A DNA stretch of 42,468 nt, from the NCBI GenBank assembly GCA_021782655.1, contig JAJXUT010000003.1, positions 1 through 42,468 on the forward strand. Direction: 5' to 3'. This document shows positions 36,708 through 42,468 of the stretch, one piece after another. A program made the position numbers and the translations under genes. The first letter of the stretch is position 1. Each line of letters begins with the position of its first letter. The notes under the pieces are model-generated. The model was not told the DNA's origin, did not search any database, and was given only the letters and a program-made list of their open reading frames with translations. The DNA comes from Deltaproteobacteria bacterium (GTDB lineage: Bacteria; Desulfobacterota; Desulfobulbia; Desulfobulbales; VMSU01).

Positions 36708-37672
36708 GGAGGGGGATCGGCATCATCGGCACCGGCAAACACGGCAGCCGCTATGCCGAGCACCTCGTCCGCGACCTGGCGGATCGCGCCGAGCTGACCG
36801 CCGTCTGCCGGCGCTCACCAGCCATCGGCAAGGAACAGGCCGACCGCTGGCAGGCCGCCTACCACCAAGACTGGCGACAGCTCGTCGCCGACCCGCGAGT
36901 GGAGGCGGTGATCAGCGTCACCACCCCCAACCTGAACCCAGAGATCGCCGCCTGCTGCCTCAATCACCAAAAACCCCTGCTCATCGAAAAACCGCTGGCC
37001 GTAAGCATGGCCGCCGCCCAGACCATGGTGGCGGGTTTTCAGGACGCCGGCCTGCCGCTGACCGTAGCCCATACCCTGCGCTACAACCAGGTCATCCTCG
37101 GTCTGCGACGGGCATTCCCCCGGATCGGCGAGCTACGTTGCCTATCCGCCACCCATCAGCTTGAACCGTCCACCCTCGACTGGCTGACCCGCCCGGAACT
37201 GGCGGGCGGCGGGGTCATCTTCCACACTGCGGTGCACGTCTTCGACGCCCTGCGCTTCATCACCGGCCAGGAGATCATTCGCATCCAGGCCACGGCCCGG
37301 CGGGTTCATAACCCCAACCTGGAGGACCTGCTCACCGCCCAATTCGAGTTAAGCGGCGGGGCGCTGGGCACGCTGCTGGCGGGCAAGGTGGGGGCGGCCC
37401 GGGCGGGCCGTTACGAGTTCATGGGGGAGGCGGGGCAGTTGCAAGGCGACCAGGTGCATGGTCAACTGGAATTGGTGCAAGGGGCTGAGGTCACCACCCT
37501 TAAGCGCGGACAGCCAGGGCCGACCATCCTTCCCCTGCTCCGGGACTGGCTGGGTTATCTGGCGGGCCTGGGGGAGAACCCCCTCCCAGGCCAGGAGGGC
37601 TGGGCAGCGGTCAGGGTCTGCGCGGCCTGCGACCAGGCGGCGAGAGAGGGGGGCTGGGTCGCCTGCCTATGA
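36704..37672 (+). CDS. Gfo/Idh/MocA-family oxidoreductase
   Basis: GIIGTGKHGSRYAEHL Rossmann motif, EKPLAVSMAAAQTMV, HTAVHVFDALRFITG. Confidence 0.9.
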   Translation: MRRGIGIIGTGKHGSRYAEHLVRDLADRAELTAVCRRSPAIGKEQADRWQAAYHQDWRQLVADPRVEAVISVTTPNLNPEIAACCLNHQKPLLIEKPLAVSMAAAQTMVAGFQDAGLPLTVAHTLRYNQVILGLRRAFPRIGELRCLSATHQLEPSTLDWLTRPELAGGGVIFHTAVHVFDALRFITGQEIIRIQATARRVHNPNLEDLLTAQFELSGGALGTLLAGKVGAARAGRYEFMGEAGQLQGDQVHGQLELVQGAEVTTLKRGQPGPTILPLLRDWLGYLAGLGENPLPGQEGWAAVRVCAACDQAAREGGWVACL

Positions 37673-39790
37673 GACGGAGGCGATGTCGTGGATCGTCCAG
37701 GCCCCGAAGAAGGACTCCACCTCCTTAACCGACACCGGGCGGCTGACGAAATAGCCCTGCACGAAGTCGCAGCTTAGGCGGGAGAGGTAGTTTAAGTGGT
37801 CGCTGGTCTCCACCCCCTCGGCCACCACCTCCAGATTCAGGTTGTGGGCCAGGGTGACGATGGCCCGGACGATCATGGCATCGTCCTCGCTGTTGGTCAG
37901 GTCGCTGACAAAGGAGCGATCGACCTTGAGCACGTCGACCGGGAAGCGCTTTAGGTAGTTAAGCGAGGAGTAACCAGTGCCGAAGTCGTCTATGGACAGC
38001 CGGCAGCCCAACTGGCTGAGCTTATCCATCCGCTCGATGCTGCCATCGACGTTGTCCATCAGCATCGACTCGGTGATCTCAAGCTCGATAAGCTCCGGAT
38101 TGACCCCGGTGTCGGCCAGGGCCCGGGCCACCGTGTCCAGCAACCAGGCGTCCTTGAACTGCCCGGCGGAGAGGTTGACCGCCACCCGGACCGGCTGGCC
38201 CGCCTCCTCCCAGAGCTTGCACTGCCGGCAGGCGGCCCGCAAGACCCACTCCCCGATGGGCACGATCAGCCCGGTGTCCTCGGCTAGCGGAATGAACTTC
38301 ATGGGCGAGATCACCCCGAACTCGGGATGCTGCCAGCGGATCAGGGCCTCCACCCCGGTGACCTTGCCAGTAGCCAAGGTCACCTGCGGCTGATAGAGAA
38401 GGGCGAACTCCTCCCGCTCCACCGCCCTTCTGAGGCTGGTCTCCAGGGCGAAGCGGGCAAAGGCCTTGGTGTTCAGCTCGGCGGTGTAGAACTGGTAGCT
38501 GTTACGTTCCAGTTCCTTGGCCGAGGACAGGGCCGAATCGGCGCACTTCATCAGCTCGTCCACCGTGTCGCCGTCGTGGGGAAAGGCCGAAAGCCCCACC
38601 CGGCAGCTCAGGAAGATCTCGCGCTGGTCGATGACCACCGCCTGGATCAAGGACTCGATGATCCTCCGGGCGACGATGGCGGCGTCGGCCATGTCCCTAA
38701 GCCCCTCCAAGATGATCCCGAACTCGTCGGCCCCGAAGCGGGCGGTGATCTCGTTTTCGGTTACGCAGCCAGTGAGATCCGAGCGGCGAAGCGAGTCCTG
38801 CACCCGCTTGGAAACCAGGTTCAGCACCCGGTCACCCACCTCGCGGCCAAAGGTGGTTTGGATGTTGCGGAAGCTGTCGATATCCAGGAAGAGCACCGCC
38901 AGCGACAGGCCGTTGCGCCGGCAGTTGTTCATCGCCTTGGCCAGGTGTTCCTTGAACAGAAAACGGTTGGGCAGGCCGGTCAACCGGTCGTAATAGACCA
39001 GAAACTTGATCTTCTGCTCGGTGATCTTGGCCTGGGTGATGTCCTGGCAGGTGAAGAGGATCTTGAGCGGCACCCCGTCACCTCCCAAGAGCACCTTACC
39101 GTCCTGGCGGAAGGTCAGCTCGATGCCGTCGCTGCTCACCAGCCGGTGCTCAAAGGCGATGTTGGACTTGCGCTCCAGACCCTCCAGGATGGCCTCGGCC
39201 ACCGCCGGGCGGTCGTCGGGGAAGATGAGGTTTAAGAAGTCGTCGTATGATCCGGGGGCGTTTTCGTGGGTTATCCCCACCAGGCGGCTCATCTCCTCGC
39301 CCCAGGCCAGGCTGTTGTCGGTCAGCCGCCACTCCCAGTTGGTGAGGTGGGCCACCTCCCGGGCCGCGGCCAGCATGACCTCCCGGACGCTCAAGTCGGA
39401 AATCGCCTGGTTGGCCCGGATGATATAGCGGATCTTATAGCTTAAAAGCAGGGGGTTGATGGGCTTGACCACGAAGTCGGTGGCCCCGCAGTTGAAGGCG
39501 TGGTTGATGGACTCGTAGTCGTCCTGGCCGGTGATCATAATGATCGGCACCCGCTCTCCGCCCGGCATCTGGCGGATGCGGGCGCAGACCTCAAAGCCGT
39601 CCATGTCCGGCATGATGACGTCGAGCAGGATGGCGTCCGGCATCAGGGTCTGGAAATCGTTCAAGGCGTCCAGACCGCTGGGCGACTCGGCGGTGAAAAA
39701 CCCCGCCTTGGACATCCCCATGCTCAGCACCTGCCGCAGGATCTTGTCGTCGTCAACAATTTGCACCAGATAGGAATGGTCATCGGACAT
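37667..39790 (-). CDS. Response regulator with PAS, degenerate GGDEF and EAL domains
   Basis: MSDDHSYLVQIVDDDKILRQVLSMG (REC), PAS region, ARFGADEFGIIL (GGDEF changed to GADEF), GVEALIRWQHPEFG, LEITESMLM, DDFGTGYSSLNYLKRFPVDVLKVDRSFV (EAL motifs). Confidence 0.93.
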   Translation of the reverse strand: MSDDHSYLVQIVDDDKILRQVLSMGMSKAGFFTAESPSGLDALNDFQTLMPDAILLDVIMPDMDGFEVCARIRQMPGGERVPIIMITGQDDYESINHAFNCGATDFVVKPINPLLLSYKIRYIIRANQAISDLSVREVMLAAAREVAHLTNWEWRLTDNSLAWGEEMSRLVGITHENAPGSYDDFLNLIFPDDRPAVAEAILEGLERKSNIAFEHRLVSSDGIELTFRQDGKVLLGGDGVPLKILFTCQDITQAKITEQKIKFLVYYDRLTGLPNRFLFKEHLAKAMNNCRRNGLSLAVLFLDIDSFRNIQTTFGREVGDRVLNLVSKRVQDSLRRSDLTGCVTENEITARFGADEFGIILEGLRDMADAAIVARRIIESLIQAVVIDQREIFLSCRVGLSAFPHDGDTVDELMKCADSALSSAKELERNSYQFYTAELNTKAFARFALETSLRRAVEREEFALLYQPQVTLATGKVTGVEALIRWQHPEFGVISPMKFIPLAEDTGLIVPIGEWVLRAACRQCKLWEEAGQPVRVAVNLSAGQFKDAWLLDTVARALADTGVNPELIELEITESMLMDNVDGSIERMDKLSQLGCRLSIDDFGTGYSSLNYLKRFPVDVLKVDRSFVSDLTNSEDDAMIVRAIVTLAHNLNLEVVAEGVETSDHLNYLSRLSCDFVQGYFVSRPVSVKEVESFFGAWTIHDIASVS

Positions 39791-40044: not shown

Positions 40045-41787
40045 ATGACAACCCGCCCCTTAACACCCCTGCTGGCCACGCTCCTCGCCGCCCTCCTGCT
40101 TTTACCCGCCGCCATCAGCCAGGCCGAGGGCAAGGGCAAGCTGGTCTTCCCTCCCGACAAGAGCATCGTCAACCAACTGGAGTTGCGGCTGGTGGGGGTC
40201 AGCCCCGAGGCGGGGGCCACGGTCGGCATCAAGGTCAAGGCCGCCGGAGGTGGACAGGAGGCCAGCGCCCAGGTAATCAACGGCGCCTTCAGCCAGACGG
40301 TGAAACTATCGCCAGGGGCAAACACCATCACCGTCTCCGGGGGCGGGGTGGAGACCAGCCGGACGGTCTTTCTGTACACCAAAGAAACGCCCCCGCCCGC
40401 CAACCAGGGCCTTTCGCCCTTCTACCTGCATCCCCCCCAGGGCGACATCACCGCCCAGTGCGACAAGTGCCACCAGCTCGACCCCAAGGCCCCCGACTAC
40501 ACCAACTTCACCCAGAAGGGCCCCTGCATCTCTAAGGGCTGCCACGACAACTTCGGCGACAAGAAGTACAAACACGGCCCCTTCGCCAAGGGCCTGTGCC
40601 TTGACTGCCACAACCCCCACGGCTCGCCCAACAAGGACATGACCAAGAAGGCCCGCGCCGCCCTCTGCTTCACCTGCCACAGCGACGACGCCGGCATGGC
40701 CAGCTCCGACAAGGTGGTGCACTTCCCGGTCAAGCAGGGCGACTGCCTCCTCTGCCACGAACAGCACCAGTCGGACCAACCCTTCCACCTCAAGGGCAAG
40801 TCGGTGGTCGAGCTGTGCGGCCGTTGCCACGAAAAGACCCTGATCAAGTTCACCTACATGCACGCCCCCTTCAAGGAGGGGGACTGCATCGCCTGCCACT
40901 CGCCCCACGTCTCGAAGTTCAAGCGGCTGTTGAACGAGCAGGGCTCGGCCCTGTGCCTGAACTGCCACAAGGAACGCGAAGAGGAGTTCAAGCGCCTCTA
41001 CGTGCACGAGCCGGTGAAGAAGGACTGCACAATCTGCCACGACGCCCACGGCTCCGAGGCCCCGGATCACCTGCGCACCCCGCTGGACAAGAGCGGCCGG
41101 TATATCAAATACGCCCAGCCGGTCAAGGAGCTGTGCCTCTCCTGCCACCGCAAGCTGAACCCGGACATCGCCAACGAGATCGAACACGCCAAGGTACAGC
41201 ACAAGCCGGTGGCGGAGGGCAAGTGCACCATCTGCCACACCCCCCATTCCACCAACTTCAAGAAGCAGCTCCGCACCTCTCTTGAGGACGCCTGCTTCGG
41301 TTGCCACAAAAAGCTCGCCCAGCAGATCAAGAGCAGCAAGTACCTGCACGGCCCGGTGCGCACCGACGACTGCGCCCAGTGCCACCTGGTGCACGGCTCG
41401 GAACTGCCCAAGCTCCTGCGGGCCAACTTCAGCCTAAACTACACCGAGGACTTCTCGCTCCAGAAGTACGCCCTGTGCTTCAACTGCCACAACAGCAAGG
41501 TGATCACCGACCCCAACAGCCTGGAGACCGGCTTCCGCAACGGCAATGAAAACCTGCACTACAAGCACGTCAACCGCAAGGATGGCCGCACCTGCATGAC
41601 CTGCCACGACATCCACGCCTCCAACCAGCCCAAGCATATCCGCACCACCATCCCCATGGGCAAGAACTACACCATAAACTTACAGTACACCAAGACCGCC
41701 ACCGGCGGCGGTTGCGTGGTGGGCTGTCATAACCCCAGAAATTACGACCGTGAACATCCGGTCAACTATCAACAACCGGCCAATTGA
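40045..41787 (+). CDS. Secreted multihaem c-type cytochrome with N-terminal Ig-like domain and doubled-CXXCH repeats
   Basis: Signal peptide MTTRPLTPLLATLLAALLLLPAAISQAEG; 14 CxxCH motifs plus CISKGCH (CX4CH) and CVVGCH (CX3CH). Confidence 0.92.
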   Translation: MTTRPLTPLLATLLAALLLLPAAISQAEGKGKLVFPPDKSIVNQLELRLVGVSPEAGATVGIKVKAAGGGQEASAQVINGAFSQTVKLSPGANTITVSGGGVETSRTVFLYTKETPPPANQGLSPFYLHPPQGDITAQCDKCHQLDPKAPDYTNFTQKGPCISKGCHDNFGDKKYKHGPFAKGLCLDCHNPHGSPNKDMTKKARAALCFTCHSDDAGMASSDKVVHFPVKQGDCLLCHEQHQSDQPFHLKGKSVVELCGRCHEKTLIKFTYMHAPFKEGDCIACHSPHVSKFKRLLNEQGSALCLNCHKEREEEFKRLYVHEPVKKDCTICHDAHGSEAPDHLRTPLDKSGRYIKYAQPVKELCLSCHRKLNPDIANEIEHAKVQHKPVAEGKCTICHTPHSTNFKKQLRTSLEDACFGCHKKLAQQIKSSKYLHGPVRTDDCAQCHLVHGSELPKLLRANFSLNYTEDFSLQKYALCFNCHNSKVITDPNSLETGFRNGNENLHYKHVNRKDGRTCMTCHDIHASNQPKHIRTTIPMGKNYTINLQYTKTATGGGCVVGCHNPRNYDREHPVNYQQPAN

Positions 41788-41814: not shown

Positions 41815-42468
41815 ATGAACCGCCCCGACTCCAAAAAACGTCTAGCCCTTACCCTGTCAGTCATTCTCACCGGCCTGGCCCTGTCTTTCTCGATGTTCAA
41901 TCCCGCCGCCAGCCGCGCCGCCGGGCCGCCACCAGCCGGGGCTAGCCTGCCACCGCTGCCCGCCGACAACGGTGGCCAGGAGGCGGCCTCGCTGCGCAAC
42001 TTCAAGTTCGGCGACAAGCTGCCGCCCTTCACCTTGAAGACCATCGACGGCCAGGGGCCCAAGACCTTCACCCCGGGGGCAGACGGCAAACCATCGCTGA
42101 TCATCTTTTTCTCGGTGCGGCCAGAGTTCAGGGAGAAACGCTCCCTGGCCCTGCTCTCGGCCATGGCGGCGATGGCCGACCAGTACAAGAACAAGGTGGA
42201 GATCGTGGGGGTCTTCAGCGACAGCCAGGGCGGCCAGGTCGTCCGGGACTACGTCAAGCCCTTTGGCAACAAGCTGGTGGTCTATGACGACCCGGCCCTG
42301 GAGGTCAACAACCAGTACGGCGCCTTCATGATGCCGCTGGCCATCATGTGCACCAAGACCGGCACCCTGCACGAGGTCATCCCCTACACCTACAACATCC
42401 GGGAGCTAATCGACGGCAACTTCAAGCTCCTCTTGGGTGAGTTTACCAAAGAACAGCTCCAGGCGGCC
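41815..42468 (+). CDS. Exported thioredoxin-fold (redoxin/TlpA-like) protein, C-terminus beyond right window edge
   Basis: Manual translation: MNRPDSKKRLALTLSVILTGLALSFSMFNPAASRAAG...FKFGDKLPPFTLKTIDGQGPKTFTPGADGKPSLIIFFSVRPEFREKRSLALLSAMAAMADQYKNKVEIVGVFSDS...; AAGGA upstream. Absent from ORF track because open at the window edge. Confidence 0.82.
   Translation, partial: MNRPDSKKRLALTLSVILTGLALSFSMFNPAASRAAGPPPAGASLPPLPADNGGQEAASLRNFKFGDKLPPFTLKTIDGQGPKTFTPGADGKPSLIIFFSVRPEFREKRSLALLSAMAAMADQYKNKVEIVGVFSDSQGGQVVRDYVKPFGNKLVVYDDPALEVNNQYGAFMMPLAIMCTKTGTLHEVIPYTYNIRELIDGNFKLLLGEFTKEQLQAA

Follow-up and report, generated by a model that had tools for sequence, protein, structure and literature searches.

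A multihaem cytochrome gene in the DNA analysed here may bear on how electrons pass from the periplasm onto nanowires of the OmcS/OmcE type. This DNA, referred to as the window, is a stretch of 42,468 nucleotides (contig C138:1-42468) from the metagenome-assembled genome (2.4 Mb, 140 contigs) of a sulfur-cycling bacterium. The encoded protein joins an Ig-like domain to eight doubled haem units, the first and last of which contain variant haem motifs. The reading preferred here, at a probability of about 0.6, is that the protein is an exported electron wire of sixteen haems with an Ig-like docking domain, which would act as a relay between periplasmic cytochromes and a path through the outer membrane to OmcS-type nanowires outside the cell.

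The gene, its product and known cytochrome families

The reading frame of the cytochrome gene is open already from 39796. The natural start is the ATG at 40045, MTTRPLTPLLATLLAALLLLPAAISQA, which gives the product a Sec-type signal peptide (Table 1). Translation of the ORF yields sixteen haem motifs, of which fourteen are CXXCH, the second is CX4CH and the last is CX3CH. The preliminary description of this DNA had listed the same sixteen motifs, and its coordinates match the translation exactly. The Ig domain that it had named is likewise borne out by modelling, as AlphaFold2 predicts an eight-strand beta domain at residues 32-110 (pLDDT ~86-95) that Foldseek aligns with Ig-type folds, with the Pfam match of this region to PF09136 being sub-threshold (E 0.0018).

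Table 1. Features of the cytochrome locus, with positions in the window and the basis of each assignment
Feature	Position	Strand	Basis
Ig-like domain plus predicted 16-haem c-type cytochrome, 580 aa, exported	40045..41787	+	Translation; PF09699 x7, E 5.8e-75; 25 full-length relatives in 52-sequence alignment
Sec-type signal peptide, residues 1-28, lipobox cysteine absent	40045..40128	+	Sequence; helix 7-27 in AlphaFold2 model
Ig-like beta domain, residues ~30-112	40132..40380	+	AlphaFold2 strands; Foldseek Ig-type matches; sub-threshold PF09136
Second haem site, CX4CH (CISKGCH), residues 161-167	40525..40545	+	C161, C166 and H167 invariant in 17 and 52 aligned relatives; spacing differs in some orthologues
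Haem sites 3-15, thirteen canonical CXXCH, residues 185-521	40597..41607	+	All invariant as haem sites in 17-orthologue alignment (one is CX3CH in L049)
C-terminal beta cap bearing the last haem site, residues 535-568	41647..41748	+	AlphaFold2 strands, pLDDT ~90-96
Sixteenth haem site, CX3CH (CVVGCH), residues 557-562	41713..41730	+	C557, G560, C561 and H562 invariant in 17 and 52 relatives; 20/20 unseen orthologues
Redoxin-fold/TPR operon partner (start only), without redox CXXC	41815..42468	+	Enters scaffold gap at window end, continues to contig ~42757
Divergent receiver-PAS-GGDEF-EAL regulator gene	37670..39790	-	Found next to the cytochrome gene in four further genomes of the family

The mean pLDDT of the AlphaFold2 model was 70 with 17 sequences and 89.1 with 52 sequences. 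In the 52-sequence model, the poorly modelled part lies mainly in the stretch that separates haem 1 from haem 2, around residues 131-160, and the CX3CH motif sits in a four-strand C-terminal cap (strands 535-538, 542-550, 554-559 and 565-568). For the haem domain of this better model, Foldseek returned no match to any solved structure, as the only matches were to Ig-type domains. An MtrA fold had been matched from the poorer model alone and was not repeated with the better one, and the fold of the haem chain is therefore left unassigned.

By family, the protein is a variant of the doubled-CXXCH electron-transfer cytochromes, with matches over seven stretches and scores of 247.2 bits against PF09699 (cut-off 20.6) and 229 bits against TIGR01905 (cut-off 25.2). 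Membership in other families was rejected. Scores fall below the cut-offs of the MtrA/DmsE decahaem family (TIGR03508, 162.1 vs 192.2 bits, with 16 motifs rather than 10), the GSU2203 decahaem family (NF041028, 122.5 vs 325 bits) and the OmcA/MtrC family (TIGR03507, 35.3 vs 209.3 bits, the lipobox being absent). Among the NCBIfam matches at E up to 1, HmcA (NF045713) is unlisted, and the nanowire subunits OmcE and OmcS are matched only locally (E 0.00025 and 0.0069, respectively). Profile searches of Pfam, NCBIfam and the PDB returned no characterised family with the same architecture. Among solved structures, the profile search ranks MtrA from the Mtr complex first (6r2q_A, E 8.9e-32, a match covering part of the chain). 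MtrA resembles the window protein in its repeated doubled-CXXCH units and its low residue-to-haem ratio. Doubled-CXXCH chains with such a ratio, including MtrA, form stacked haem wires, and the density of the haem domain here, at 28 amino acids per haem, is that of wire-like MtrA relatives. MtrA differs in that its haems number 10, all of them canonical, and in lacking the Ig domain and the end-cap motifs.

Gene neighbourhoods and the proposed route of the electrons

In the source genome, the cytochrome gene is followed by a redoxin/TPR gene, a gene for an Ig-type decahaem cytochrome (contig 42921-44075) and a further redoxin/TPR gene, and this module recurs in the family. The window ends at 42468 against a run of N (from 42469), which is a scaffold gap inside the first redoxin/TPR gene. 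The pair formed by the 16-haem and redoxin/TPR genes is tandemly duplicated in two genomes (L047:296-6048 and L048:3937-9659). The downstream partner combines an AhpC/TSA-fold domain with TPRs. A redox-site CXXC is absent from all 56 redoxin/TPR homologues, a few of which are fragments, and from nine more in the blind set of orthologues described below, and the partner therefore cannot act as ResA does. Since CcsA and ResB genes often accompany redoxin/TPR genes in relatives, one guess is that the partner binds or holds the apo-cytochrome or its assembly. The literature search found nothing on a redoxin/TPR partner of multihaem cytochromes. On the other side of the cytochrome gene, the receiver-PAS-GGDEF-EAL gene also stands beside the operon in G001, G005, G006 and G007, suggesting that the two are under shared control.

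At seventeen loci in other families of the order (seven from the first set of orthologues and ten from the blind set), the cytochrome gene is directly preceded by an OmcS-like gene and directly followed by a beta-barrel-like gene. The sole strong PDB match of the OmcS-like neighbour is the OmcS filament (6ef8, E 4.6e-21). The downstream product has no Pfam or NCBIfam match; its length of ~700 residues, its composition and the presence of Phe at or near the end of most complete copies suggest that it would form a beta-barrel. In the OmcS-like proteins (L056:11027-12058, L051:8100-9224, L013:4230-5345 and others), five CXXCH motifs are accompanied by an invariant C-x5-C-H (e.g., CAGTxGCH) at the third haem position, where two relatives (L145 and L141) have CXXCH. 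This CX5CH may be a haem-binding motif that has not been recorded.

The preliminary description had proposed an extracytoplasmic electron conduit, a role to which the OmcS-like and beta-barrel-like neighbours in relatives lend support. The alternative that survives best, though it is unlikely, is that the protein is a carrier or capacitor which, like HmcA, would work between periplasmic cytochromes and inner-membrane complexes without ever touching the outer membrane. A signal peptide without a lipobox is consistent with this alternative, as is the operon of the window family, in which 16-haem, redoxin/TPR, 10-haem and redoxin/TPR genes follow one another and porin and nanowire genes are absent. 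HmcA of Desulfovibrio is itself periplasmic with 16 haems, as the window protein would be in this alternative. In the source genome, no porin or nanowire gene lies within 12 kb around the gene; an OmcS-like gene is located on contig C113, and any nanowire link in this genome would therefore operate in trans. However, in the other families of the order it is the clade of Ig-bearing 16-haem proteins (Ig16) that is flanked by OmcS-like and beta-barrel-like genes, which argues against a purely periplasmic role. Also against this alternative, HmcA chains are only weak, local matches to the family profile (E 1.4e-6 and worse), and the protein has no NCBIfam match to HmcA at E up to 1.

Clusters of comparable composition have been described in other systems. 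In the Uet pathway, a doubled-CXXCH cytochrome, the undecahaem UetJ, is clustered with tetrahaem, porin, PPIase and NHL genes (PMC10734462); UetJ differs in having 11-12 motifs, the comparison being by description only (PMC10734462). Similarly, in the Desulfobacterota, the OetABI conduit and the Seep-SRB 16-haem/26-haem operon unite multihaem cytochromes of large size with genes for porins, PPIases, beta-propellers and OmcS-like proteins (PMC10553843, PMC5539420). Set against the Seep-SRB 16-haem protein, again by description only, the window protein counts 14 by CXXCH. OmcG/OmcH and OmcX were also weighed as candidate relatives. In the proposed wire, electrons would be taken from periplasmic cytochromes, with the Ig-type decahaem cytochrome as the operon partner, and would flow outward so that OmcS-type filaments are charged via an outer-membrane barrel.

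Conservation of the variant motifs and the number of haems

Genus, family and order all contain full-length orthologues, as do some of the phylum's other families. Within the order (taken as Desulfobulbales), they were found in 41 of 194 genomes and 21 of 62 genera. A contig-level protein search returned one true orthologue and one distant match, and a plasmid search returned no close relative and one match at 30%. Apparent stops inside some orthologues were considered as recoding and rejected, as these are a terminal stop or a frame edge, and open ORFs with all 16 motifs are present there.

In a first alignment of 17 orthologues (36-61% identity), the Cys and His residues of both variant motifs, together with G560, are invariant (Table 1). 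The second site of one of these orthologues, L055, reads CTTG-CH, and one internal motif of another, L049, is CX3CH. Across 52 aligned proteins, neither variant site shows any change in its two Cys or its His. A blind set of 20 further orthologues was gathered only after the conservation in the first 17 was known. In this set, the last motif is CX3CH in every protein, and the second site is CX4CH in 14, CX3CH in five and CXXCH in one, with a total of 16 motifs in 19 proteins and 15 in the other. Because the variant motifs are invariant haem sites in 17 orthologues and recur in 20 more, they are not the product of chance. The preliminary description would have fallen had its terminal motifs not been conserved in orthologues; their conservation in the sets of 17, 52 and 20 relatives leaves it unrefuted, with an adjustment at one end. 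At the level of sequence, the C-terminal CX3CH is a hard constraint and is strictly kept, whereas the N-terminal site is constrained to be a haem motif but tolerates different spacings, and CX4CH is not fixed there.

The supply of ligands provides a second line of evidence. Sixteen bis-His haems require 16 additional histidines, and 17 non-motif His are invariant in the Ig16 clade, so the conserved histidines would suffice. Two of the histidines, H129 and H192, occur in every one of the 25 Ig16 proteins, all with haem 1, and in none of 27 Ig-less relatives, from which haem 1 is absent. The Ig-less relatives mostly have a His four positions on, in the column of residue 196 (20 of 27), giving ~15 ligands for 15 haems. 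Ligands thus come and go with haem 1, given that H129 and H192 track its presence, and this covariation, which is independent of the variant motifs themselves, fits predicted haems at both variant sites. Because every haem has a candidate ligand, a catalytic five-coordinate haem would be disfavoured. In addition, the source genome encodes a ResB/CcsA haem-attachment system.

Both variant spacings have precedents. In MmcA of Methanosarcina acetivorans, mass spectrometry found haem c on both CX3CH and CX4CH (+615.17 Da; PMC11024163), and homologues of ImcH have CX3CH (PMC6295460); given these examples, the CX3CH motif is less exotic than the preliminary description, which called it rare, had supposed. 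Like the window protein, MmcA has one CX3CH and one CX4CH among the CXXCH motifs of a single multihaem cytochrome, all of them haem-bearing (PMC11024163). MmcA differs in being archaeal, in having 7 haems and in its link to Rnf (PMC11024163); the likeness considered here is that of the motifs.

It is highly improbable that the protein holds only 14 haems, with the CX4CH and CX3CH stretches being degenerate, haemless remnants. Such an account could draw on the few biochemical records of CX3CH, the variable N-terminal spacing and the poor modelling of residues ~131-160. However, it is at odds with the invariance of Cys, Cys and His at both sites over 52 proteins, the recurrence of CX3CH in 20 of 20 unseen orthologues, the retention of a haem motif through every change of spacing at the second site, a count of conserved His that fits 16, and the example of MmcA (PMC11024163). 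The number of candidate haems in the preliminary description was also 16, and motif conservation and histidine supply point the same way: judged from these sequences, a row of sixteen haems in the exported protein is very probable.

A family of end-capped cytochromes

A family profile of the C-terminal block (the last 115 residues) was searched in 297 genomes of the phylum, of which 45 encode homologues. In the source genome search, the window protein itself scores E 3.4e-52 against this profile, with the C-x-x-G-C-H ending present, and two more end-capped members, with 15 and 9 motifs, are encoded on contig C122. Among 89 non-redundant members, 88 end in CX3CH, a count that is partly built into the search because the profile contains the motif. 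The association with CX4CH is not built in, and this motif is present in 64 of the 89, being the first motif in 40 and the second, behind the extra haem 1, in 24; one further member has an internal CX4CH. By comparison, a set of 97 other multihaem proteins encoded at these loci includes 12 with any variant motif, with two ending in CX3CH and five starting with CX4CH. The members have totals of 7, 9, 10, 11, 12, 13, 15, 16, 25 or 27 haem motifs, a few of the shorter ones being fragments, and one 26-motif protein has neither end motif. In a tree built without the Ig and haem-1 columns, a branch supported at 100/99 separates all 25 Ig16 proteins from the rest, which makes Ig-domain fusion and the acquisition of haem 1 look like a single event.

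Fixed terminal haem sites combined with a variable number of units are as expected if the ends dock fixed partners. In the proposed wire, the N-terminal Ig-like domain would dock a partner, the conserved end haems would meet fixed partners as the points of electron entry and exit, and the number of middle units would set the reach of the wire, with all 16 haems presumably bound in vivo and conducting. The chance is slimmer still than that of a 14-haem protein that the end-capped proteins are themselves filament subunits, polymerised head-to-tail via their two end haems, as the distinct conserved motifs at just two ends and the nanowire genes nearby might suggest, since in OmcS and OmcE filaments each subunit supplies a His to its successor, whereas one chain here has His enough for all 16 haems and its match to OmcS is local and no more than a trace (E 0.0069).

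Support for the nanowire-feeding wire also comes from a shorter relative. At both L109 and L110, the gene for an end-capped 10-haem cytochrome lies among genes for ResB, CcsA, an Ig-type octahaem cytochrome, an NHL-like protein and a close OmcE homologue (7tfs, E 5.4e-37), and this nanowire cluster (L109) was counted in favour of the wire reading. The 10-haem cytochrome shares the C-terminal CX3CH block with the window protein, but has 10 motifs and lacks the N-terminal CX4CH and the fused Ig domain. Gene order and motif counts in L109 and L110 match those of the Geobacter omcE region (PMC2700814, PMC10989804), and by synteny and haem count the cytochrome is probably of the Gmet_2899/GSU0615 type. 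In that case Gmet_2899, which is listed with 9 haems, would be a 10-haem protein. End-capped cytochromes adjoin nanowire genes in two forms, in OmcS-like clusters in Desulfobulbales and in an OmcE cluster elsewhere in the phylum, and the family offers a concrete candidate for the transfer of electrons from the periplasm onto the nanowires.

A broader proposal, possible but doubtful, is that of a modular haem wire, in which the CX3CH beta-cap haem and the CX4CH haem would be fixed connectors for different partners and evolution would alter only the units between them (7 to 27 haems). A single connector design would then be shared by a number of nanowire and conduit systems throughout the phylum. 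Within the openly accessible literature searched, no report was found of the end-capped architecture or of the Ig16 clade; the single motif types are known. Counting solely by CXXCH misses one or two haems in each protein of the end-capped family, and the CX3CH ending provides a sequence signature for finding such components.

On contig C122 of the source genome, three multihaem genes stand in a row (L012:7253-10739), encoding the end-capped 15-motif protein, a multihaem lipoprotein-like protein and the end-capped 9-motif protein. The end-capped cytochromes L106:254-2278, L120:2849-4804 and L098:674-2908 have 25, 25 and 27 haem motifs, respectively, and in each of them the first motif is CX4CH and the last is CX3CH.
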